Source: Streptomyces sp. NBC_00285 (GTDB lineage Bacteria; Actinomycetota; Actinomycetes; Streptomycetales; Streptomycetaceae). From it: DNA of 64,000 nucleotides. Location of the stretch: NCBI RefSeq assembly GCF_036174265.1, contig NZ_CP108055.1, positions 8,060,001-8,124,000 of the forward strand. Direction: 5' to 3'. Below are positions 1 to 11,038 of this stretch, in pieces; the first letter of the stretch is position 1, and each line of letters begins with the position of its first letter. Made by a program: the position numbers and the translations under genes. The notes below the pieces were generated by a model, which was not told the DNA's origin, ran no database searches, and was given only the letters and a program-made list of their open reading frames with translations.

Positions 1-1029
1 CGGCTGGCCGACTGGGTGCTCCGCAGGTCCGACCCCCGCGCCCTGCTCATCGGCACGGTGGTGCTGCCCAAGCGCGGTGACCGCTCCTGCGGAGTGCACC
101 GCCGCTTCGTCCCGCAGGAGGGACGTACCGTCAACTGCCAGGTCGGCATCGGCGCGTTCCTCGCCGCGGACCGCGCGACGGTCCCCGTCGACTGGCGGCT
201 GCTGCTGCCCGGAGCGTGGTCCGGGGACTCGCAAGTACGCAGCCGTGCCCGCATCCCCGAAGGCGCCGCCGGTGTCCAGGACTCGGCCGGCTCCCAGGCG
301 CTGGACCTGCTCGACGGGGCCGGCCTGAGCCTGCCCGGCGCGGGACCGGACGCGGACGGGGTGCCGGTCGTAGCCGACCTGGTCGGATTCGCGGACACCG
401 CGATGCTCGTCGGCGGGCTCGTGGCCCGAGGCCGGCACTTCGTCGTGGCCGCACCCGGCGACCTCGTCGTCCTCCCGGACCGGGCCGCGTCCGGGGCGTC
501 CGGCGGATGGGCCGGTACCGGCTCCGCGCCCGCTCTCCAGCCGCGACAGCGGACCGCCGGCGGTCCGCTGCCCGCCCGTGACCTGCTCACCGCGCATGAC
601 GTCCGGTCGCCGCACCAGCCCCCCGCGGCGGCGTCCGTGGTGCAGGTCCGCCTCCCCGGCATCCCCGTACCGCTCAGGCTGCTGGGGGAGCGCAGGCCGG
701 ACGGGTCCGGCGGCGACCGGTTCTGGCTCACCGACCTCGTGGACCGGCCGGCCCACGAGGCTCTGACACTGGCCCGGCTGCACACGGGCGCCGCCGACAC
801 CATGGACCGGCTGGCCGACGACTTCGGACTGCGCGCCTTCGAAGGGCGCTCGTACCCCGGCTGGCACCACCACATGACGCTGGTCTCCGCCGCCTTCGCC
901 TACGGCACCCTCGGCCGCGCCGGAGCGCCCCCCTCCCACCCCGCCCGGGCCTCACGCGGACCACAGGCCGGCCGGCCCCCACGCCGCGCACGGACCCTGA
1001 CGACACCGACACGAACGGGATGCTCCTGA
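1..1029 (+). CDS. IS701-like transposase homologue, 5'-truncated by window
   Basis: The frame is open at base 1, so the real start lies outside the window. The visible 342 residues resemble the DDE domain of IS701-family transposases. The region normally reading DDTGFPKxG here reads IGTVVLPKRGD, followed by the family-like NCQVGIG and DWRLLLP. The second acidic position (VVADLVGFADT) and the third (FEGRSYPGWHHHMTLVS) are kept, but the first catalytic Asp pair is replaced by Ile-Gly, so strand-transfer activity is doubtful. No terminal inverted repeats are visible nearby. The stop overlaps the MFS gene, so it seems to be cotranscribed with the biosynthetic genes. I infer a domesticated protein or a dead remnant; its role is unknown. 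Confidence 0.75.
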   Translation, partial: RLADWVLRRSDPRALLIGTVVLPKRGDRSCGVHRRFVPQEGRTVNCQVGIGAFLAADRATVPVDWRLLLPGAWSGDSQVRSRARIPEGAAGVQDSAGSQALDLLDGAGLSLPGAGPDADGVPVVADLVGFADTAMLVGGLVARGRHFVVAAPGDLVVLPDRAASGASGGWAGTGSAPALQPRQRTAGGPLPARDLLTAHDVRSPHQPPAAASVVQVRLPGIPVPLRLLGERRPDGSGGDRFWLTDLVDRPAHEALTLARLHTGAADTMDRLADDFGLRAFEGRSYPGWHHHMTLVSAAFAYGTLGRAGAPPSHPARASRGPQAGRPPRRARTLTTPTRTGCS

Positions 1030-2267
1030 TGGCCCTCCCCAAGGCGTTCTGGCTGCTGTGGTGCGGGCAGACCGTCAGCCGGCTCGGCACGCTCGCCCCC
1101 GCCTTCCTCGTCCTCTACCTGGAGCAGAACCACCTCGTCGCACCCGGCACGACACCGCTCGTCGTCGGACTCTTCGGGGCCGGTGTGGTGCTGTCCGGGC
1201 TGGTGGGAGGGGCGGTCGCCGATCTGATCGGGCCGCGCCGGACCATCGTCGCGGCGCAGCCGTTCACCGCGGGGATGGCGCTGCTGTTCGCCGTCGCCGA
1301 CCATGTGGCCGCACTGTGCGCGCTGTCGTTGATCACCGGGTTCCTGTCCGCCGTCGACCGGCCGGCCGGCGCCGGACTGATCTCGGCGATCGTGCCACAG
1401 GAGCAGTTCTCGAAGGCGTACAGCCTCTTCCTGGTGGGCTTCAACATCGGCATGTCGCTCAGCCCCGTACTCTCCGGGTTCCTGCTCGAAGTCAGCCCCG
1501 CAGCCCTCTTCGTCGTCTGGGCGGCCTCCAGCCTGATCTACGCCGCCCTGGTGTTCGCGGTGCCCGCCGACCCACCGTCCCGGGCAGCCGACCGGCCCGC
1601 CGGTGCCGCGGCCGCCCTGAAATCGGCCGCGCGCGGCATCGCCGAACCCTTCCGCACTCCCGTCCTCGTCGCCTTCCTGCTGCTGACGTTCCTGCTGGCC
1701 TGCATCTACCTCCAGGTCAACTCCGCGCTGCCGCTCGACATGCGGGACAGCGGACTGACCGCCGGGGGCATCGGATTCGTCCTCGCGGCCAACGCGGTGC
1801 TGTCCGTCCTGCTGCTGCCGCTGGTGCCCCGGCTCGTCGGCGGGATGCGCGCACACGTCCCGCTGATCCTGGCCGCCGCCTTCATGGCCGTCGGCTTCGG
1901 CGCCAACGTCCTGGCCGACAGCATGGTCTCCTTCACGCTCGCCACCGTCGTGTGGACGCTCGGAGAGGTGCTGTGGGCCCCGATGTCCGCGACCTTCATC
2001 GCCGACCGGGCGCCCGCCGGACGCAGCGGCGCCTACCAGGGCTCCTACTTCTTCGCCTGGAACGCGGCGTTCGTGGTCGGCGGCCCCGCCGGCCTCGCCC
2101 TCGCCCACACTCACGGCTACGGGGCGCTGTGGATGTCCGTCCTCGGCCTCGGGTGCGTGGTGACGCTCGGCTTTGCACTGCTGCCGCGGCTGACGGGCTT
2201 CGTGACCAGGCCGGCTCCCTCAAGTGACCACAGGGACGACCAGGTGACCACCGTGACGACCAAGTGA
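1020..2267 (+). CDS. MFS transporter, probable product exporter
   Basis: This 415-residue polytopic membrane protein has the usual MFS pattern: a first helix starting near WLLWCGQTVSRLG, a loop carrying DLIGPRR between helices 2 and 3, and a central hydrophilic linker around residues 180-205. It is likely a drug or metabolite efflux pump of the 12-helix type; the substrate is inferred only from position in a biosynthetic operon. The first ATG (1020) overlaps the preceding gene by 10 bases. A second ATG at 1029 forms a TGATG overlap with the upstream stop and is an equally good, translationally coupled start. The last codons and the stop lie inside a 20-bp tandem repeat, so the C-terminus (SSDHRDDQVTTVTTK) is repeat-encoded. 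Confidence 0.85.
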   Translation: MLLMALPKAFWLLWCGQTVSRLGTLAPAFLVLYLEQNHLVAPGTTPLVVGLFGAGVVLSGLVGGAVADLIGPRRTIVAAQPFTAGMALLFAVADHVAALCALSLITGFLSAVDRPAGAGLISAIVPQEQFSKAYSLFLVGFNIGMSLSPVLSGFLLEVSPAALFVVWAASSLIYAALVFAVPADPPSRAADRPAGAAAALKSAARGIAEPFRTPVLVAFLLLTFLLACIYLQVNSALPLDMRDSGLTAGGIGFVLAANAVLSVLLLPLVPRLVGGMRAHVPLILAAAFMAVGFGANVLADSMVSFTLATVVWTLGEVLWAPMSATFIADRAPAGRSGAYQGSYFFAWNAAFVVGGPAGLALAHTHGYGALWMSVLGLGCVVTLGFALLPRLTGFVTRPAPSSDHRDDQVTTVTTK

Positions 2268-2369
2268 CCATCGCGACGACCCAGGTGACCACCGCGACAA
2301 CCACGTGACCACCGCGACGCCGCGTCAACCAGGTGACCACCGCGTCAACCAAGTGACCACCGCGACACC
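2221..2369 (+). repeat. 20-bp tandem repeat, seven copies, across MFS stop codon
   Basis: Seven consecutive units with the core CAAGTGACCACCGCGACGAC begin at 2221, 2241, 2261, 2281, 2302, 2330 and 2350. The period is 20 bp, with one 21-bp and one 28-bp spacing. The MFS stop TGA lies in unit 3 and the rest fills the gap before the SDR gene. Each copy contains GTGACC. A 20-bp period is not a multiple of three, so the array is not selected as protein sequence beyond the stop. Two turns of helix per unit would put any bound protein on one DNA face, but no function is known to me. Confidence 0.9.
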
Positions 2370-2405
2370 GCAGAACAGCTGACCCGAGAGACAAGGTGAC
2401 CCAGC

Positions 2406-3161
2406 ATGTCCGCACCGACCACCCGCACCGCCCTGCTGATCGGGGCTGCCGGAGGCATCCTCAAGGAGGTCTCGCGCGAGCTCGCCGAACAGGGCCACAC
2501 CCTCGTCCTGTTCGACCGCGACGCGGAGGCCGTGAACCGGCTCGCCGACGAACTGGGCCGGCTCACCAAGGTCGAGGCCGTCGTCGGCGACATCACCGAC
2601 ATCCCCGCCGCGGAAGGCCAGTTGACCGACATCGTCGACCGGTTCGCCCCGTCGATCCTGGTCAACGGCGTCGGCGGCGACACCCGCGTCATCGGCTACG
2701 CCGACCTGACCCGGGACCACTTCGACCAGACGTACCTGGAGAACGTGGTCAGCAGCTGGATCGCGGTCAAGGTGTGCGCCCCGCGGATGGCCGCCGACGG
2801 CTACGGCCGCATCGTCAACTTCGCCTCGGCAGGCGGCCGTACGTACAGCCACTTCAACAACGCGGCGTACGTCGGCGCCAAGGCCGCCGTGATCGGCATG
2901 ACCAAGCAGCTGGGCTACGAGCTGGCCGGCACCGGCGTGGTGGCCAACGTCGTGGCGCACGGACCGATCGGGACCGACCGGGTGGCCGGCGCCTTCGAGC
3001 GGCGCACCGAGGAGTCCAAGAAGGACGTCATGTCCCGGCTGCCCATGGGGCGGTACGGCACGGTCGCCGAGGCCGTCGGCAGCGTGCTCCACCTCTGCTC
3101 CGAGAGCGCCGGCTACTCGACCGGTTCCGTCATCGACATCAACGGCGGCCTCTACATGTGA
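2406..3161 (+). CDS. SDR family NAD(P)-dependent oxidoreductase
   Basis: A classical short-chain dehydrogenase of 251 residues. The nucleotide-binding glycine motif is GAAGGIL (residues 13-19), where the usual last glycine is Leu; VNGVGG stands in for NNAG. The catalytic triad is Ser141 (FASAGG), Tyr155 and Lys159 (YVGAK). The C-terminus ends in the family-typical SVIDINGG. It probably reduces a ketone or oxidises an alcohol of a cluster intermediate, as BacC does in bacilysin synthesis; the substrate is not deducible. The start ATG follows a purine-rich GAGACAAGG sequence just after the tandem-repeat array. Confidence 0.9.
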   Translation: MSAPTTRTALLIGAAGGILKEVSRELAEQGHTLVLFDRDAEAVNRLADELGRLTKVEAVVGDITDIPAAEGQLTDIVDRFAPSILVNGVGGDTRVIGYADLTRDHFDQTYLENVVSSWIAVKVCAPRMAADGYGRIVNFASAGGRTYSHFNNAAYVGAKAAVIGMTKQLGYELAGTGVVANVVAHGPIGTDRVAGAFERRTEESKKDVMSRLPMGRYGTVAEAVGSVLHLCSESAGYSTGSVIDINGGLYM

Positions 3162-3186
3162 GTCCGGCTCTCCATGTGAGTCCGGC
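3151..3186 (+). repeat. 18-bp tandem duplication over SDR stop codon
   Basis: TCTACATGTGAGTCCGGC (3151-3168) is followed directly by TCTCCATGTGAGTCCGGC (3169-3186), 17 of 18 bases identical. The first copy carries the last codons and the TGA of the SDR gene. The second copy is untranslated and leads into the YciI gene's ribosome binding site. It looks like a recent slippage duplication. Confidence 0.9.
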
Positions 3187-3213
3187 CGACACCCCCCGCC
3201 CCAGGAGGCACCC

Positions 3214-3522
3214 ATGGCGAAGTTCGTCGTCGAACTCGAGTACAACGTCGACCGCGCGGGCCGCGAGCCCCTGCACCGTGCCCATACCGACTACCTGCGC
3301 ACCCTCACCGACAGCGGCGTGCTCCTGCTCGCCGGTCCGCTCCAGGACACCAACGCCGGCCTGCTGGTCTACGAGGCCGAGGACCGCGACCGGCTCGAGG
3401 AGATCCTGGCCGCGGAGCCCTACGTCCAGGGCGGCATCGTCTGCCGGGTCCGTGTCCGCCAGTGGGCCCCCGGCAAGGGCGCGTGGATCACCGCGCCCTT
3501 GCCCGCGCCCTCGGCCGCCTGA
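3214..3522 (+). CDS. YciI-like domain protein
   Basis: A small 102-residue single-domain protein with a YciI/ferredoxin-like fold signature: FVVELEYN at the start, HRAHTDYLRTL followed by GVLLLAGPL, then EAEDRDRLEEIL and a final hydrophobic strand. YciI proteins are small dimeric proteins, some active as hydrolases or dehalogenases and others suspected to bind or shape reactive intermediates. The His-containing helix (residues 22-24) fits the usual active-site region. An AGGAGG ribosome binding site lies 5 bases before the ATG. It sits between SDR and aminotransferase in the operon, so a role on a pathway intermediate is likely but unspecified. Confidence 0.8.
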   Translation: MAKFVVELEYNVDRAGREPLHRAHTDYLRTLTDSGVLLLAGPLQDTNAGLLVYEAEDRDRLEEILAAEPYVQGGIVCRVRVRQWAPGKGAWITAPLPAPSAA

Positions 3523-3579
3523 CGCCCCGCACCCACCCGTCCCGCTCCCACGCCTGTCACCCGGAAGGATCCGACTGAC

Positions 3580-4986
3580 GTGTCCACAACGCCAGTTCCG
3601 CAGGACACCGCCCTGCCCCGTGAAGCGCTGCACGCCGCCATCGTCGACCCGGCCATGGACTCGATGCGCCTGCTCAGCGAGACGGCGATGAGGTTCCCCG
3701 AAGCCCTGTCGTTCTCGTCGGGAGCGCCGCACGACGGCACCCACGACCTCGCGAAGCTCTCGTACTACGTCGACCGGTACATCACGCACATGCGCCGGCA
3801 GGGAGTGCCCGAACAGCGCATCACCCGCCTGCACTTCCAGTACGGACCCGTCAACGGGTTCATCCAGGAAGAGGTCGCCCGGATGCTCGCCCGGGACGAG
3901 GACATCGATGTCGACGCCGACGCGATCATGATCACGCACGGTTTCCAGGAGGCGGCGCTCGTCGCCCTGCGCGGACTGTTCCGGTCACCGGACGACGTGC
4001 TGCTGTCCGTGTCCCCCGCGTACGTCGGCATCCGGGGCGCCGCCCGCATGCTGGACATTCCGGTGCGAGGCATCACCGAGGGACCCGACGGCCTCGAACC
4101 CGAGGCCGTGGCCGCCGCCGTGCGTGCCGTGCGCGCCGAGGGCAGGCGTCCTACCGCGCTCTACCTGGTCCCCGACTTCTCCAACCCCTCGGGCACCGTC
4201 GTCCCGCTTGAGGCACGCAGGCGACTGCTCGAGCTGGCCGCCGAAGAGGGGTTCACCATCCTGGAGGACAACCCGTACGGGCTGTTCGCGAGCGACGAGG
4301 AGCGGCTGCCGACCCTGAAGTCGCTGGACACCCGCGGCGATGTCGTCTACCTGGGCTCCTTCGCGAAGGCCGCGTTCCCCGGCGCCCGCCTGGGCTACCT
4401 GGTGGGCGATCGCGAGGTCGTCGGCGAGGACGGTGTGCGGCGCACCCTCGCCCAGGAGCTCTCCAAGGCCAAGGCGATGTTCACGGTCGGCTCGTCCTCG
4501 CTCTCCCAGGCGGCGATCGGCGGCATCCTCGTCGACGCCGACCACGACCTGCGCTCCGCCACCCGGGATCTGGCCGCCGTCTACCAGGAACGGCTCGCCG
4601 CCACCCTCGCCGCCCTCGCCGAGCACTTCCCGCCGGAGCGCTACGCCGAGCACGGGGTGCGCTGGAACCGCCCGCGCGGCGGGTTCTTCCTGGTCGTCGA
4701 GGTGCCCTTCGAGGCCGACCTGGCCGCCATGGAACGGTCGGCGCGCGACTACGCGGTCAGCTGGGCCCCGATGAGCATGTTCCACCTCGACGGCGGCGGC
4801 GAACGCGCCCTGCGCCTCGGTTTCAGCAACCTCACCCCCGCCGCGATCCGCGAGGGCATCGCCCGCCTCGCCCGCTTCGTCGAGGCCGAGTCCGAGTCCG
4901 AGTCCGAGGCCGAATACGAATCCGAGGCCGCGTTCGGATCCACGTCCCTGCCCGAGTTCGTGTCCGCATCGGAGGCTCACGCATGA
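3580..4986 (+). CDS. PLP-dependent aminotransferase (fold type I)
   Basis: 468 residues with aminotransferase class I/II architecture and closest in feel to 2-aminoadipate/MocR-type transaminases, but without the N-terminal GntR helix-turn-helix. Visible cofactor residues are Asn202 in PDFSNPSGT, Asp230 in LEDNPYG and the Schiff-base Lys263 in LGSFAKAAFPGARLGY. It should move an amino group onto a keto-acid intermediate using PLP. The start is GTG 3580, with GGAAGG about 12 bases upstream. From residue 435 the C-terminus is a low-complexity Glu-Ser tail encoded by hexamer repeats and absent from ordinary family members. The stop overlaps the ATP-grasp start as ATGA, so the two are translationally coupled. 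Confidence 0.88.
   Translation: MSTTPVPQDTALPREALHAAIVDPAMDSMRLLSETAMRFPEALSFSSGAPHDGTHDLAKLSYYVDRYITHMRRQGVPEQRITRLHFQYGPVNGFIQEEVARMLARDEDIDVDADAIMITHGFQEAALVALRGLFRSPDDVLLSVSPAYVGIRGAARMLDIPVRGITEGPDGLEPEAVAAAVRAVRAEGRRPTALYLVPDFSNPSGTVVPLEARRRLLELAAEEGFTILEDNPYGLFASDEERLPTLKSLDTRGDVVYLGSFAKAAFPGARLGYLVGDREVVGEDGVRRTLAQELSKAKAMFTVGSSSLSQAAIGGILVDADHDLRSATRDLAAVYQERLAATLAALAEHFPPERYAEHGVRWNRPRGGFFLVVEVPFEADLAAMERSARDYAVSWAPMSMFHLDGGGERALRLGFSNLTPAAIREGIARLARFVEAESESESEAEYESEAAFGSTSLPEFVSASEAHA
4882..4929 (+). repeat. Hexamer microrepeat encoding Glu-Ser/Ala tail
   Basis: Eight in-frame hexamers of the type GAGTCC, GAGGCC or GAATCC (with one GAATAC) encode the acidic tail ESESESEAEYESEA near the C-terminus of the aminotransferase. 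Because the unit is six bases, gain or loss of copies keeps frame, so the tail length may vary between strains. Confidence 0.85.
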
Positions 4987-6266
4987 GCACCGCGTTCCCC
5001 ACGTCCACCGCGGGCGGCCCGCGCCGTGTCGCCGTCGTCGTCGACGGCTACTCCGCCGGCAACTTCTACCCCGCCGCCTTCGCCGCGTGCGACACGGCCG
5101 TCGTCCACGTCCAGAGCACCCCGGAGCTGATCCCGGCCATGGCGCCGCCGGATCTCACCGCGTACGAGCAGACCGTCGTCGCCACCGACGAGGCCGCACT
5201 CGTCGAGGTGCTGCGCGGCCTCGACCCGGTGTGCGTGATCGCCGGCCAGGAGTCCTCCGTACCGCTCGCCGACCGGCTGAGCGAGGCGGTCGGCGTCCCG
5301 TCCAACGGCTCGGCACTGTCACCGGCCCGCCGGGACAAGTACGAGATGACCGAGACACTGCGGCGGGCCGGCGTGCCCTGCGTGCGGCAGTTCAAGACCG
5401 ACGACCCGGACGCGGCGGTGGCCTGGGCCGAGGACCACGGCAGCTACCCCGTCGTCGTCAAGCCGCTCAGCTCGGCCGCCTCCGACGGCGTCGTCGTCTG
5501 TGCCGGCCCCGACGCGGTCCGCGCCGCCGCCCGCAACGTCCTCGACGCCCCGAACATGTTCGGCATCGCCAACACCGAGATCCTCGTGCAGTCCTATCTC
5601 AAGGGCACCGAGTACATCGTCGACACCGTCAGCAGTGGCGGCGAGCGCTATGTGTGCGGGGTCTGGGAGTACGAGAAGACGCTGCTGCCGTCCGGCAAGA
5701 ACATCTACAACCGCGACCTGCTCGCCGACCCGGAAGGCAACCCGGTCGTCGCCGCGCTCACCGCGTACGTCGACGAGGTCCTCGCCGCTCTCGGCGTCGC
5801 CTGGGGACCGGCCCACGCCGAGGTCATCGTCACCGACGAGGGCCCGGTCCTGGTCGAGATCGGCACCCGCCTCAACGGCAACATCAGCGCCCCCTTCCAC
5901 GACGTGTGCCTGGGCCACAACCAGGCGGCGCTCACCGCACAGGCGTACACCCGGCCCGAGGAGTTCCGCGCCGAGTACGGCGGCCGGACGTACGCCAGGC
6001 TGCAGCCGGCCTTCGTCTACAACACCCCGACCGGGCTCGACGGTGTCGTGGAGTCCGTCGACGAGACGGCCGTGGCGGAGATCCGCTCCCTGGAGAGCGT
6101 CTTCTCCGCGACGGTCAAGCTCGGTCCCGGCTCCCGGATCACGCCCACCGTCGACCTGCTGACCACGCCCCTGCGGGTGTACCTGACGGCCGCCGACGAG
6201 ACGACGCTCACGGCCGGCTACGAGAAGGTCCGCTCGCTGAAGGACGCCGTCTACCGCGTCGCCTGA
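4983..6266 (+). CDS. ATP-grasp amide/peptide ligase-like protein
   Basis: 427 residues with an N-terminal pre-ATP-grasp Rossmann-like domain (residues 1-115, including IAGQESSVPLADRL) and a central ATP-grasp fold: SYPVVVKPLSSAASDGV (nucleotide-binding lysine), ILVQSYLKGTEYIVD, and the metal/phosphate segment VLVEIGTRLNGNISAP carrying the Glu and Asn expected in this superfamily. The layout matches L-amino-acid ligases of the BacD type, which join an amino acid to a carboxylate through an acyl phosphate. Coupling to the upstream aminotransferase by a 4-base ATGA overlap supports the view that the aminated product is its substrate. The exact acceptor is unknown. Confidence 0.85.
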   Translation: MSTAFPTSTAGGPRRVAVVVDGYSAGNFYPAAFAACDTAVVHVQSTPELIPAMAPPDLTAYEQTVVATDEAALVEVLRGLDPVCVIAGQESSVPLADRLSEAVGVPSNGSALSPARRDKYEMTETLRRAGVPCVRQFKTDDPDAAVAWAEDHGSYPVVVKPLSSAASDGVVVCAGPDAVRAAARNVLDAPNMFGIANTEILVQSYLKGTEYIVDTVSSGGERYVCGVWEYEKTLLPSGKNIYNRDLLADPEGNPVVAALTAYVDEVLAALGVAWGPAHAEVIVTDEGPVLVEIGTRLNGNISAPFHDVCLGHNQAALTAQAYTRPEEFRAEYGGRTYARLQPAFVYNTPTGLDGVVESVDETAVAEIRSLESVFSATVKLGPGSRITPTVDLLTTPLRVYLTAADETTLTAGYEKVRSLKDAVYRVA

Positions 6267-6322
6267 CACACCGTCAACTTCCTTTTCTTTCCTCTCGTTT
6301 CGTTTCTCTCAGGAGGCTCATC

Positions 6323-7432
6323 GTGCACAGCCGTATCGGTCTGTTCCTGTCCCCCGTCCACGAGACCGGCCAGGACCCGAACCTGGCGATACGCCGGAAC
6401 CTGGACCTCGTCGAGTACGTCGACGACCTCAACTTCGACGAGGCGTGGTTCGGCGAGCACCACACGCTGGGCTGGGGCCTCGTCGGGGCGCCCGAGACGA
6501 TGATCGCCGCCGCCTCGCAGCGCACCCGCCAGATCAAGCTGGCCCACGGTGTCGTACCGCTCTCCGGCCACCACCCCTTCCACGTGGCGAGCCGGGCCGT
6601 CCACCTCGACCACCTCACCCGCGGTCGGTACATCCTGGGCGTCGGCCCCGGCGTGCCCTTCGACGCGAAGATGTTCGGCCTGGAGCAGCCGGTGCAGCGG
6701 CGCCGCCTGGAGGAGGCGCTGCCGACGGTCCTGGAGCTCGTCAACGGCGATGAGCGGATCACCCAGCAGACCGACTGGTACGACCTGCGCGACGCCAAGA
6801 TCCAGCTGCCGCGCTTCAGCCCGCAGGGCATCGAGGTCGCCGTCGCCACCTCCGGCACCTCGCAGTCCAGCCCGCGCCTGATCGGTCAGTACGGGCTGAG
6901 CATGACCTCGTTCGCGCTGCCCTTCGCCCTGCTGACGCCGGGTGCGCCCGCGCACATCAACCTCGCCCACCAGTGGAAGTACGCGCAGGAGTCCGCCGCC
7001 GAGCACGGGCAGACCCTGGACCGCGACAAGTGGCGCATCGCCCTGCCGGTGCACGTGGCCGAGACCCGCGAGGAGGCGTACGCGGACGTCCGCGAGGGCT
7101 ACGACCGCTGGCTGTTCGAGTACTTCGGCAAGGCGGCCGGCCGCGAGGTGCTCAGCCCGGACGTACCCCGGGAGCGGGCACTGGAGGCCCGGGTCGAGGC
7201 GGGCGGCGCACTCGTCGGCTCCGTGGACGACGTGGTCGCCGGCATCGAGCGGCTGCACGAGATCACCGGCGGCTTCGGCACCCTGCTCGTCTACGTCGCC
7301 GACTGGACGTCGTGGGAGAAGACCAACCGCAGCATGGAACTGCTGGCCCGCTACGTCGCGCCGCGCTTCACCGGCTCCGCCGCCCGGCCGCAGGAGGCCG
7401 TGGACTTCGCGATCGCCGCCCGCAACAGCTAG
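6323..7432 (+). CDS. LLM class flavin-dependent monooxygenase
   Basis: A luciferase-like (bacterial limonene-monooxygenase-type) TIM-barrel oxygenase of 369 residues. Diagnostic segments are NFDEAWFGEHHTLGWGLVGAPE, KLAHGVVPLSGHHPFHVA, HLTRGRYILGVGPG and a C-terminal GGFGTLLVYV strand. Such enzymes use FMNH2 supplied by a separate reductase to hydroxylate or Baeyer-Villiger-oxidise small organics. The flavin reductase two positions on in the same direction is the obvious partner. The start is GTG 6323 with AGGAGG 6 bases upstream; the longer reading frame running in from 5087 is a shadow of the ATP-grasp gene. Confidence 0.88.
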   Translation: MHSRIGLFLSPVHETGQDPNLAIRRNLDLVEYVDDLNFDEAWFGEHHTLGWGLVGAPETMIAAASQRTRQIKLAHGVVPLSGHHPFHVASRAVHLDHLTRGRYILGVGPGVPFDAKMFGLEQPVQRRRLEEALPTVLELVNGDERITQQTDWYDLRDAKIQLPRFSPQGIEVAVATSGTSQSSPRLIGQYGLSMTSFALPFALLTPGAPAHINLAHQWKYAQESAAEHGQTLDRDKWRIALPVHVAETREEAYADVREGYDRWLFEYFGKAAGREVLSPDVPRERALEARVEAGGALVGSVDDVVAGIERLHEITGGFGTLLVYVADWTSWEKTNRSMELLARYVAPRFTGSAARPQEAVDFAIAARNS

Positions 7433-7440
7433 GGCATGCC

Positions 7441-7546
7441 GCGAAAGTCCCGCCCGCCCGGCGACGCCGTGCGCGCACTTCCCCAGAAGGGGACCCCCCC
7501 GCCGCATTGTCGGGCCCGCCCCACGGGCGGACGACGCGACTTTCGC
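7441..7546 (+). repeat. Interrupted inverted repeat between oxygenase and reductase genes
   Basis: GCGAAAGTC (7441-7449) is the exact reverse complement of GACTTTCGC (7538-7546). The 88 bases between contain a smaller CTTCCCC/GGGGA hairpin and a C-run. The whole could fold into a long stem or be a small MITE-like relic that widens the 243-base gap in an otherwise tight operon. I see no clear target-site duplication, so the nature is uncertain. Confidence 0.35.
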
Positions 7547-7675
7547 AACACGCCTCGGCCCGCGGGCACCCACGGCTCGCGCAAGCGCTCCCGGAAGCCC
7601 GACGCCCCTCACGCCGCGCCACGCCGGGCCGGTTCGCCGGCCCGGCCGGGCGTCCCGTCCGATCGGAAAGAACTC

Positions 7676-8152
7676 ATGCTGGAGCAACGCTCGTTCCGCG
7701 ACATACTCGGCCGGTTCACCACCGGAGTGGTGCTGATCACCGCCGACACCGCCGACGGTCCCAAGGGCATGGCGGTCAACTCCTTCACCTCCGTCTCCCT
7801 GACCCCGCCGCTGGTCGCCCTGTGTGCCGCGGACTCCTCCTCCACCTGGCCGGCCATCCGTGACGCCGGAAACTTCGCCGTGACGATCCTCGGAGACCGG
7901 CACGCGGAGCTGTGCCGGCTGTTCAGCACCAAGGGCGCGGACCGGTTCGCCGGCGGCGGCTGGTCGACGACCCGGGCCGGGCACCCCATCCCCACCGACG
8001 GACTGGGCTGGCTGGACTGCCGTATCAGCACGGTCCACCGGGCGGGCGACCACGAACTGGTCATCGCCGAGGCCCTGGAGGGCGACCTGACGGACCAGGC
8101 GGGGCCGCTGGTGTTCCACGCCGGCCGCTTCACGGCACTGGCGGCCGCCTGA
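7676..8152 (+). CDS. Flavin reductase (NAD(P)H:FMN), partner of LLM oxygenase
   Basis: A 158-residue HpaC-like flavin reductase domain. Signatures are FRDILGRFTTGVVLITA at the start, GMAVNSFTSVSLTPPLVALCAA (FMN-binding split-barrel strand), FAVTILGDRHAELCRLFS and a terminal GPLVFHAGRF. It should reduce FMN with NAD(P)H and pass FMNH2 to the oxygenase encoded just upstream. The start ATG 7676 has GGAAAG upstream; earlier in-frame codons translate to low-complexity Arg/Pro sequence and are not part of the gene. Confidence 0.88.
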   Translation: MLEQRSFRDILGRFTTGVVLITADTADGPKGMAVNSFTSVSLTPPLVALCAADSSSTWPAIRDAGNFAVTILGDRHAELCRLFSTKGADRFAGGGWSTTRAGHPIPTDGLGWLDCRISTVHRAGDHELVIAEALEGDLTDQAGPLVFHAGRFTALAAA

Positions 8153-8406
8153 CGCACGGCCGCCATGTCCTCGCCCGGCGCGGCCCGGCGGAGTCCGGCC
8201 GGGCCGGGCGCGGCCCGGCACCCGGTTCCGGGCACACGGCCCGCCGCACCTCACACAGCCCGTCGCTGCTCGTAGCCGCCCGACGCGGCCCGCCCGTCCA
8301 CCGGACCGAAGCCACCGCCGCCCTCGGCCCGGCCGGGCCCGGCCCGCCCGGCACCCGCGCCGGTACGCGCGCCTCCGCGTCGACGCCCATGAGAAAGGCA
8401 ACCCGC

Positions 8407-9381
8407 GTGTCCCCGACCGACCCCATCACCACCCTTTCCCTTCCGCCGGATGCCAGGGGCGAGGCCGATCTCGCCTTCGTCCGGACCGCCCCGCGTCATC
8501 TCGTCGCCCGCAGCGCGGTGGCCGAGGTACTGATCACGGACTGGCGGCAGTTGGGCCCCGACACGTTCCGGCTGGGCGCTCAGTGGCCGCGCGGGCACCA
8601 CTTCTACGCACCGATCGCCGGCACCTGGTACGACCCGCTGCTCGCCGCGGAGTCGTTGCGCCAGGCGTCCGTCCTGATCGGGCAGACGTACTACGGAGTT
8701 CCGGCCGATCAGCACGTCACCATTACCGAACTGGAGTTCGAGGTGATCCCGGGAGCCCTGCTCCTGGGGGCCCGGCCCGCCGAGATGCGCCTGGAGTTCG
8801 CGGCCACGGACGTACGGCGTCGGCGGGGCGCCCTCACCGCGCTCACCCTGGAGGCTGACCTGCTGCGCGGCGGCGACTTCGCCGGCGCCGGGCGTCTGAC
8901 CCTGCAGGTGTCGGACCTTCGCGACCCCGCCGCAGGGGAGGGCGGCGGGTACCCGCCTCTGCCCGACCCCGTCCCGCCCGCGATCGTGGGCCGCCTGGAC
9001 GAACATGACGTAGTCCTCGGCGTTCCCGGTTCGAGTGCCGGCTCCGGTTCCGGCCGTCGGGGCCCGGGCCTGGCCTGGGACCTGCGGATCGACCCCGGCC
9101 ACCCGGTGCTCTTCGACCACCCCACGACCGACGTCCCCGGCATGGTTCTCCTGGAGGCCGCCCGCCAGGCCGTCCAGGCGGCCTGCGCCCCCTACCGCGT
9201 CCTCCCCGTCGAACTGCGCAGCGCCTTCCACCACCCCGTGGCCCTGGCCACCCCCTGCCACATCTCCGCGACCAGACTCCCCGCACAGGACGCGAGCGAG
9301 GATGCCGCACTCCGGGTCACCGCCTGGCAGTCCGACCGCCTGGCCTTCGACAGCCTCGTGGTGGCGAGCCTGTGCGGCTGA
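8407..9381 (+). CDS. AfsA/ScbA-family (butyrolactone or butenolide synthase-like) protein
   Basis: 324 residues with two tandem AfsA hotdog repeats. The first is around LVARSAVAEVLITDWRQLG and QWPRGHHFYAP, with ESLRQASVLIGQTYYGVP. The second is around HPTTDVPGMVLLEAARQAVQ. In known systems AfsA/ScbA condenses a beta-ketoacyl-ACP with dihydroxyacetone phosphate to start gamma-butyrolactone synthesis, and relatives (MmfL, furans) do similar chemistry. No cognate TetR-type receptor gene lies beside it, so it may signal to a distant receptor or make a structural part of the product. I prefer GTG 8407, with AAGG 8 bases before it, over ATG 8389. The 254-base gap before it holds only GGCCCGGC-rich hairpin sequence. 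Confidence 0.88.
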   Translation: MSPTDPITTLSLPPDARGEADLAFVRTAPRHLVARSAVAEVLITDWRQLGPDTFRLGAQWPRGHHFYAPIAGTWYDPLLAAESLRQASVLIGQTYYGVPADQHVTITELEFEVIPGALLLGARPAEMRLEFAATDVRRRRGALTALTLEADLLRGGDFAGAGRLTLQVSDLRDPAAGEGGGYPPLPDPVPPAIVGRLDEHDVVLGVPGSSAGSGSGRRGPGLAWDLRIDPGHPVLFDHPTTDVPGMVLLEAARQAVQAACAPYRVLPVELRSAFHHPVALATPCHISATRLPAQDASEDAALRVTAWQSDRLAFDSLVVASLCG

Positions 9382-9508: not shown

Positions 9509-11038
9509 TCAGATGTCCCGGAAGATCTCGATCTGCGCCCCCACCGAGTTCAGCCGCTCGGCGAGATCCTCGTAACCCCGGTTGATGACATAGACGTTGC
9601 GCAGTACGGACGTGCCGTCCGCCGCCATCATCGCCAGCAGGACGACCACGGCGGGGCGCAGGGCCGGCGGGCACATCATCTCGGCGGCCCGCCAGCGGGT
9701 CGGGCCCTCGACCAACACCCGGTGAGGGTCGAGGAGTTGGAGACGCCCGCCCAGCCGGTTCAGGTCCGTCAGGTAGATCGCGCGGTTGTCGTAGACCCAG
9801 TCGTGGATGAGGGTCTGGCCCTGCGCGACCGCCGCGATGGCCGCGAAGAACGGGACGTTGTCGATGTTCAGGCCGGGGAACGGCATCGGGTGGATCTTGT
9901 CGATCGGCGCCTCCAGCTTGGAGGGGCGCACGGTCAGGTCGACCAGCCGGGTACGGCCGTTGTCGGCGAAGTACTCCGGCGTACGGTCGTGGTCGAGCCC
10001 CATCTCCTCCAGGACCGCGAGTTCGATCTCCAGGAACTCGATCGGCACCCGGCGCACGGTCAGTTCCGACTCCGTCACCACGGCCGCGGCGAGCAGGCTC
10101 ATCGCCTCGACCGGGTCCTCGGAGGGGAAGTAGTCGACGTCCACGTCGATGACCGGCACACCGTGCACCGTCAGGGTCGTGGTGCCGATGCCCTCGACCC
10201 GCACACCCAGCGCCTCCAGGAAGAAACACAGGTCCTGGACCATGTAGTTGGAGGAGGCGTTGCGGATGACGGTGACGCCGTCGTGCCGCGCGGCGGCCAG
10301 CAGTGCGTTCTCGGTGACCGTGTCGCCGCGCTCGGTCAGCACGATGGGCCGGTCGGGGTGGACCTCCCGGTCGACCTGCGCGTGGTACTGGCCCTCGGTC
10401 GCCGCGACCTCCAGACCGAACCGGCGCAGCGCGATCATGTGCGGCTCGATGGTCCGGGTGCCGAGGTCGCAGCCGCCGGCGTAGGGCAGCTTGAAGTGGT
10501 CCATGCGGTGCAGCAGCGGGCCGAGGAACATGATGATCGAGCGCGTGCGGACGGCGGCCTCGGCGTCGATCGCGTCCATGTCCAGCGCGGCCGGCGGGAC
10601 GAGTTCGAGGTCGACGCCGCCGTTGATCCACCGGGTGCGGACACCGATGGAACTCAGCACCTCCAGCAGGCGGTAGACCTCCTCGATGCGGGCGACCCTG
10701 CGCAGCACCGTGCGCCCCTTGTTGAGGAGCGAGGCGCAGAGCAGGGCCACGCACGCGTTCTTGCTCGTCTTGACGTCGATCGCGCCGGACAGCCGACGAC
10801 CGCCGACCACACGCAGATGCATCGGGCCCGCGTAGCCAAGGGAGACGATCTCGCTGTCCAGTGCTTCACCGATACGCGCGATCATCTCAAGGCTGATGTT
10901 CTGGTTGCCGCGCTCGATGCGATTGACGGCGCTCTGACTGGTGCTGAGCGCCTCGGCGAGCTGCGACTGTGTCCAGCCCCGGTGCTGCCGGGCGTCACGG
11001 ATGAGCTTGCCGATGCGTACGAGGTAGTCGTCTGCCAT
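9509..11038 (-). CDS. XRE helix-turn-helix / MurA-like enolpyruvyltransferase fusion
   Basis: 509 residues. Residues 1-62 are an XRE/Cro helix-turn-helix (GWTQSQLAEALSTSQSAVNRIERG). Residues 75-505 are an EPSP/MurA fold. MurA landmarks are Lys93-Asn94 (TSKNACVALL), the PEP-reactive Cys190 in GGCDLGTRTIEPH, and PFPGLNIDNVPFFAAIAAVA with the catalytic Asp equivalent to E. coli Asp305. Canonical MurA adds enolpyruvate to UDP-GlcNAc in peptidoglycan synthesis. This second, HTH-fused form may be a metabolite-sensing regulator, an auxiliary transferase or both. It seems to match SCO5998, beside aconitase in S. coelicolor. The ATG start lacks a good Shine-Dalgarno and sits 12 bases from a likely self-operator. 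Confidence 0.88.
   Translation of the reverse strand: MADDYLVRIGKLIRDARQHRGWTQSQLAEALSTSQSAVNRIERGNQNISLEMIARIGEALDSEIVSLGYAGPMHLRVVGGRRLSGAIDVKTSKNACVALLCASLLNKGRTVLRRVARIEEVYRLLEVLSSIGVRTRWINGGVDLELVPPAALDMDAIDAEAAVRTRSIIMFLGPLLHRMDHFKLPYAGGCDLGTRTIEPHMIALRRFGLEVAATEGQYHAQVDREVHPDRPIVLTERGDTVTENALLAAARHDGVTVIRNASSNYMVQDLCFFLEALGVRVEGIGTTTLTVHGVPVIDVDVDYFPSEDPVEAMSLLAAAVVTESELTVRRVPIEFLEIELAVLEEMGLDHDRTPEYFADNGRTRLVDLTVRPSKLEAPIDKIHPMPFPGLNIDNVPFFAAIAAVAQGQTLIHDWVYDNRAIYLTDLNRLGGRLQLLDPHRVLVEGPTRWRAAEMMCPPALRPAVVVLLAMMAADGTSVLRNVYVINRGYEDLAERLNSVGAQIEIFRDI

Follow-up and report, generated by a model that had tools for sequence, protein, structure and literature searches.

What does the gene block at the left edge of a 64,000-nucleotide stretch of the Streptomyces sp. 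NBC_00285 chromosome (contig NZ_CP108055.1, positions 8,060,001 to 8,124,000; hereafter the window) make, and is it a relative of the bacilysin pathway? A sequence-only reading had matched its exporter, short-chain dehydrogenase/reductase (SDR), aminotransferase and ATP-grasp ligase to the bac functions of that pathway, here joined to a YciI-like protein, a flavin-dependent oxygenase with its reductase and an AfsA homologue. We consider it about evenly probable that the block belongs to an orphan, probably γ-butyrolactone-controlled cluster making a small amide or short peptide without nonribosomal peptide synthetase (NRPS) or polyketide synthase (PKS). The cluster is not bacilysin-like by descent and only loosely resembles the bacilysin pathway. 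The make-up had been noted as apparently undescribed, and we likewise found no account of this gene set in the open-access literature; most subscription papers lie outside that scope, so that a described cluster may exist.

The open reading frame list and the Pfam and NCBIfam scans show that the window genes are real, intact and all on the + strand, in the co-directional run that had been noted, with overlaps at 1020/1029 and 4983/4986 and gaps of 52–243 bp between block genes. They encode an MFS exporter (1020..2267; PF07690, 2e-34), a FabG-like SDR oxidoreductase (SDR2, 2406..3161; PF13561, 1.5e-37), a small YciI-like or muconolactone-isomerase-like protein (3214..3522; PF03795, 7.8e-15), a pyridoxal-phosphate-dependent aminotransferase of the 2-aminoadipate/MppQ-like kind (3655..4986; PF00155, 3e-25), an ATP-grasp ligase of the L-amino acid ligase type (4983..6266; PF13535, 1e-12), a luciferase-like flavin mononucleotide (FMN) monooxygenase (LLM, 6323..7432; PF00296, 6.5e-35), its flavin reductase partner (7676..8152; PF01613, 4.5e-41) and the γ-butyrolactone synthase homologue AfsA2 (8389..9381, likely start ATG 8389). 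SDR2 and AfsA2 denote the window copies. These genes make up only the right-hand half of a more extensive cluster. As the suggestion to look left of base 1 had anticipated, further cluster genes occupy about 13 kb there, to about -13 kb, and the whole cluster spans about 22.5 kb, from -13.05 to 9.38 kb. Negative coordinates count bases left of base 1, and the place on the contig (G000:C1) is 8,060,000 plus the number given. All genes from a GH3 acyl-adenylase through AfsA2 lie on the + strand. In total, 29 genes from -16.5 to +13.7 kb were scanned.

In order to evaluate the conservation of the block, genome contigs were searched with the ATP-grasp gene, and the cluster proteins were then compared by tblastn (E<=1e-8, 10-kb flanks fetched) in the 25 loci obtained. 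L numbers denote loci and G numbers genomes; the two sets overlap. The aminotransferase was present at 75% identity or more in 14 of the 25 loci. Ten others (L025–L034) hold ATP-grasp paralogues without the core, L033 giving only a 26% aminotransferase match, and L016 carries only the MFS and ATP-grasp genes beside a butyrolactone locus. Among the 14 aminotransferase loci, SDR2 and YciI were found in all, LLM in 13, the flavin reductase in 11 and the hydrolase together with the enolase-superfamily enzyme of the cluster (MLE) in 11; these last two were lacking only in L011, L013 and L014, which are cut by contig ends. The block is thus conserved in other Streptomycetaceae, its relatives being Streptomyces and kin, and its arrangement is not due to chance. 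The expectation that the ligase, the aminotransferase, the two-component FMN monooxygenase and the AfsA homologue form one conserved cluster was borne out.

The distribution is patchy. An aminotransferase orthologue (78–100% identity) occurs in 7/295 genomes of the genus, counting our own, and the remaining matches at E<=1e-100 reach 53% identity at most. A GH3 orthologue (72–100%) occurs in 9/295, again with our genome. At the family level, GH3 matches at E<=1e-60 were detected in 8/121 genomes including this one, five at 66–100% and three at 36–41%. Three cluster types were distinguished. Type A has the gene set of the window genome; its order from AfsA1 to AfsA2 is kept in G189, G230 and G052, and likewise in G091 minus the epimerase gene (Epim). 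The seven type-B loci (L017–L023) all hold SDR2, YciI, aminotransferase, ATP-grasp, LLM, GH3, hydrolase and MLE, together with a different MFS exporter and a second ATP-grasp ligase; the flavin reductase is found in five and the FAH-type protein in six, locus L023 ending there. Six of them (L018–L023, not L017) also carry glutamate mutase subunits, a quinone-oxidoreductase and a GntB-like desaturase-fold protein. For the window genome, this glutamate mutase was rejected as a common origin of the precursor: the only MutE match there lies at 1.31 Mb and is 31% identical. Type C (G078, G241, G332) combines an aldo-keto reductase, GH3, hydrolase, MLE, a thiamine enzyme, the FAH-type and condensation-type proteins, MFS, CHMI and SDR, with no match to the aminotransferase, this ATP-grasp ligase or LLM in the fetched stretch.

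Beyond these types, G354 carries GH3-hydrolase-MLE-FAH, MFS and SDR2 with further genes that, by eye, we take to be a dehydroquinase, LeuC, LeuD, two D-2-hydroxyacid dehydrogenases and a flavoprotein. G315 has GH3-hydrolase-MLE-SDR2-YciI followed by an FAH protein (the latter read by eye), and G299, G306 and G396 hold distant GH3-hydrolase-MLE cassettes (34–40% identity); in G396, MLE is followed by genes for an aminotransferase (29%) and for a CN-hydrolase (37%). GH3-hydrolase-enolase is therefore the most widespread unit, and the half formed with the FAH gene, which lies outside the window, is the most widely conserved part of the cluster. A midpoint-rooted tree of GH3, hydrolase and MLE (18 rows, three of type A; L010, L012, L013 and G357, in which a gene is cut or broken, and G189, G230, G052 and G091 omitted) groups A with B (90/96) and makes B one clade (100/100), with C and G354 outside and G315 deeper. 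From the placement of G315, C and G354 relative to A+B, the SDR2-YciI pair may be older than the aminotransferase-ATP-grasp-LLM set. The latter fits a single gain in the A+B clade; loss in type C is a possible alternative.

Is the ligase of this cluster a BacD? It scores 354.5 bits with the NCBIfam model PRK07206 (cut-off 302; 6.4e-106) and 194.4 bits with the DdaF model NF041595, far below the equivalog cut-off of 840, and the 13 NCBIfam models that it matches at E<=1e-3 do not include BacD (NF053745). It also aligns over nearly its full length (residues 14–418) with the solved 'L-amino acid ligase' 30vh (3.6e-54). By these profile scores it is placed in the PRK07206/DdaF group, shared with the dapdiamide ligase DdaF, and not with BacD. 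The bacilysin equivalence consequently failed: what the two pathways have in common is the functional classes of exporter (MFS), SDR, aminotransferase and ATP-grasp ligase, whereas no bacA/bacB-like gene, the presence of which had been put forward as a check, turned up among the 29 genes, the only part of the genome in which these were sought, and the conserved partners here are GH3, hydrolase, MLE and an FAH-type enzyme, a half that bacilysin does not have. A bacilysin-like dipeptide pathway is mostly refuted by this gene content, and we regard it as highly improbable.

The second ligase is the GH3 protein itself (-6421..-4721; PF03321, PF23571, PF23572). Its N, M and C domains carry the ATP motifs, which in 20 aligned rows show one form in 15 and a variant form in three, two rows (L010, G357) being unreadable. 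The best solved relative is a plant enzyme (4b2g, 5.7e-17). The domains are those of the plant GH3 acyl acid-amido synthetases, but similarity to these is low, and the gene is accompanied in its operon by those for a Cys hydrolase and for an enolase-superfamily enzyme. A parallel for the logic of the cluster is provided by the cystargolide and belactosin (cys, bel) pathways, which are likewise NRPS-free and use two successive ligases of two kinds, the second an ATP-grasp: CysC/BelV is proven to couple an acid to an amino acid before CysD/BelU adds the next (PMC11427300). The main text of that paper mentions neither GH3 nor luciferase, and neither aminotransferase nor AfsA (PMC11427300). The adenylating enzyme of our cluster differs in being of the GH3 family. 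The β-lactone warhead of cystargolide and belactosin is made by isopropylmalate-synthase-like and methyltransferase genes; no such Pfam family was found among the 29 scanned genes.

Two enzymes follow GH3, an α/β-hydrolase (-4684..-3803) and MLE (-3813..-2677), and the catalytic motifs of these three proteins are kept, namely the GH3 motifs, the hydrolase triad and the metal and lysine sites of MLE. The MLE site (KxK, D-E-DE and K) is like that of dipeptide epimerases and cycloisomerases. Its top solved relative is an unnamed family member (2p88), followed by L-Ala-D/L-Glu and dipeptide epimerases (1jpm, 3jva, 3rit) and then by muconate cycloisomerases. In 17 of 21 rows the hydrolase has Cys as its nucleophile (GHCLGG), and in three distant ones it has Ser (GQSFGG); the remaining row (G357) is unreadable. 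These two enzymes could instead form a muconate-type trio with YciI, in which MLE would act as cycloisomerase, YciI as lactone isomerase and the Cys enzyme as lactone hydrolase, yielding a lactone or keto acid precursor for the aminotransferase, with GH3 only activating the acid. Muconate cycloisomerases among the MLE relatives (3ct2, 5.6e-19), the additional match of YciI to the muconolactone isomerase domain (PF02426, 1.5e-4, below cut-off) and the CHMI-type protein of the type-C genome G241, which has no YciI match, are in line with it. The nucleophile of dienelactone hydrolase is Cys, as in 17/17 clade rows with a readable motif, and an aminotransferase follows MLE in G396. However, the better-scoring MLE relatives with a named activity are the epimerases, the best match of the hydrolase is Hydrolase_4 and no ring-cleavage dioxygenase family occurs among the 29 scanned genes. 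We consider such a trio a lesser, though real, possibility.

Catabolic pathways often contain members of the FAH, MLE, SDR, YciI, LLM and hydrolase families, which raises the question of whether the locus is an operon for the breakdown of an amide or aromatic from plants or soil. The two ATP-spending ligases, the MFS_1 transporter, the butyrolactone-type regulators and the patchy distribution given above (7/295 and 9/295 genomes) argue instead for secondary metabolism, and a catabolic role appears very unlikely. The remaining enzymes also have recognisable relatives. For the aminotransferase, aminoadipate-type enzymes are nearest (1x0m, 3aov, 2egy), with MppQ (8tn2) weaker. LLM is best matched by 3,6-diketocamphane 1,6-monooxygenase (4uwm, 4.3e-20) among solved structures, an enzyme of the two-component type II Baeyer-Villiger class, to which LLM and its reductase may also belong. 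The AraD1/FAH-type enzyme (-2641..-1748) has no Pfam match and no PDB sequence match at E<=1; its label comes from the sub-cut-off NCBIfam model AraD1/GguC-like (129.4 bits, cut-off 340).

The protein encoded at -1751..-474 (+) has no Pfam match. An AlphaFold2 model of the L012 orthologue (24 rows; mean pLDDT 78.5, pTM 0.82) has a condensation/acyltransferase fold, and Foldseek aligned it with an NRPS condensation domain and with PapA5 (E 2.7e-16 and 5.7e-16, TM about 0.6). The second His of the HHxxxDG motif is Pro in 32 of 37 homologues, with HH in one, NH in one and three unread; both aligned type-C proteins keep the His. Because its catalytic His is mostly replaced, the stand-alone type-A protein is probably not a normal condensing enzyme, and its condensation role in type A may have been taken over by the ATP-grasp enzyme.

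How is the cluster controlled? AfsA1 (-13049..-12162, - strand) and the ScbR-type regulator TetR1 (-11975..-11319) stand divergent and side by side, as in known ScbA/AfsA-ScbR systems, and both pass NCBIfam cut-offs (325.2 bits against 200 and 164.6 against 150, respectively). Between them an AT-rich block of 35 bp (-12031 to -11997) is identical in 5/5 type-A genomes read there; this block is a candidate operator. The locus differs from those systems by the second AfsA at its far end and by an inactivated IS701-like gene within it. Given the pairing of AfsA1 with TetR1 and the identical block, at least AfsA1 is likely to act in signalling. AfsA2 also passes the ScbA/BarX model (NF041195, 244.6 bits, cut-off 200) and, among the loci compared, was seen in types A and A' only. 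It could make a lactone or furan building block of the type-A product and not a signal, as it is the last gene of the run, separate from the AfsA1/ScbR set, and occurs in 5/5 type-A/A' loci whose contigs extend that far (L010, L012, L013, L015, L024). No AfsA match was found in the fetched flanks of 7/7 type-B loci, however, so that AfsA is not needed for the shared chemistry; a building-block function is unlikely. Of the two roles that had been proposed for AfsA, signal or maker of a product part, the regulatory one is thus the more likely. A third AfsA homologue lies at G000:C1:8242368-8243195, about 118 kb past the right end of the window.

On the basis of the kept motifs, the solved relatives and the ligase parallel with cystargolide and belactosin, we infer the following working model, including every substrate, the order of steps and the product. 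GH3 would join an amine or amino acid to a carboxylic acid. MLE and the Cys hydrolase, together with SDR, YciI and the AraD1/FAH-type enzyme, would modify either this conjugate or the acid in it. Amination of a 2-oxo acid by the aminotransferase would provide an unusual amino acid, the ATP-grasp enzyme would form a second amide bond, the LLM/flavin reductase pair would oxidise, MFS would export, and the AfsA1/ScbR set would give the signal that switches the cluster on. Several observations weigh against this picture. The substrates are not readable from the sequences. The best NCBIfam model of MLE is muconate/chloromuconate cycloisomerase (85.9 bits, cut-off 335), and MLE may for this reason act in precursor supply, as in the muconate-type alternative. 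Two of the 13 LLM loci (L018, L022) have no flavin reductase, and the A+B fork falls below the 95% mark of the tree tool. As for control, TetR2 stays below the ScbR cut-off (122.4 against 150), the A' genome G145, identical in sequence to L024, lacks the 35-bp block, and scanning for an autoregulatory-element consensus yielded no site, the block having come from alignment.

A wider reading of the GH3 genes is more tentative and, in our estimation, does not reach an even chance by some way. GH3, the Cys hydrolase and the enolase-type enzyme might form an undescribed portable cassette that conjugates an acid, reworks it while conjugated and then releases or transfers it: the GH3-coupled acid would be epimerised or isomerised as conjugate and then handed to the next acceptor via a thioester at the hydrolase Cys. 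It would be plugged into ATP-grasp, aminotransferase and LLM in A and B, glutamate mutase and a second ligase in most of B, a thiamine enzyme and condensation protein in C, and the LeuCD- and dehydroquinase-like set (families read by eye) in G354. If the working model is right, these three genes would be a genome-mining marker for NRPS-free amides missed by NRPS/PKS rules, and the pathway would be open to testing, its switch being a likely butyrolactone system. Comparing variants that have or lack individual modules would let the chemistry of each be deduced.

The IS701-like gene (PF13546 DDE_5, 3.1e-49) spans -320..1029 on the + strand, its 3' part being window 1..1029. It is found at the same place with an open frame and 60–73% identity in G189, G052, G091 and G230. 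Comparison with two canonical copies from our own genome shows another residue in place of the first catalytic Asp in 9/9 cluster-type rows, and in place of the Glu in 8/8 readable ones, which suggests that the protein is probably domesticated and not an active transposase. Relatives at E<=1e-40 occur in 18/41 related genomes, own included; 19 regions from 17 other genomes, covering 21 of 24 other places, were checked. The Asp is kept in 8/19 rows, the Glu in 2/19 and both in none, and GRS[FY] is present in 20/20. AfsA and ScbR-type genes lie within about 5 kb in four regions (L138, L139, L141, L146) and not in the other 15 (tblastn E<=1e-5), against about 0.1 expected by our own estimate from three AfsA loci per 10.3 Mb, the genome size of G000. 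Proteins of this kind without the full catalytic triad form a wide family, possibly of domesticated regulators; such an inactivated transposase-like family, sometimes beside AfsA/ScbR genes, could be an overlooked regulator.

The other genes left of GH3 encode the NAD-epimerase Epim (-11313..-10366), TetR2 (-10058..-9420), SDR1 (-9368..-8607), a CN-hydrolase (-8527..-7721; best NCBIfam model deaminated glutathione amidase, below cut-off), a small Cys-containing protein (-7485..-6784) and an HTH_17 protein (-6787..-6566). TetR1, SDR1, the CN-hydrolase, the Cys protein and AfsA2 (from 8518) were scanned from later starts than the coordinates given. Adjoining AfsA2 on the right, window 9509-11038 (-) encodes a MurA-like EPSP-synthase-fold protein with an N-terminal HTH domain, for which no match was found in the relatives' loci compared. 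No Rfam family reached its gathering threshold on the window. Upstream of the small Cys protein/HTH pair, a conserved leader (about -7600 to -7510) contains a terminator-like hairpin followed by a T-run. This hairpin has no Rfam match, locus L008 giving only two sub-threshold microRNA matches on the hairpin behind the CN-hydrolase gene. With a folding z-score of -3.0, the leader is a possible attenuator.

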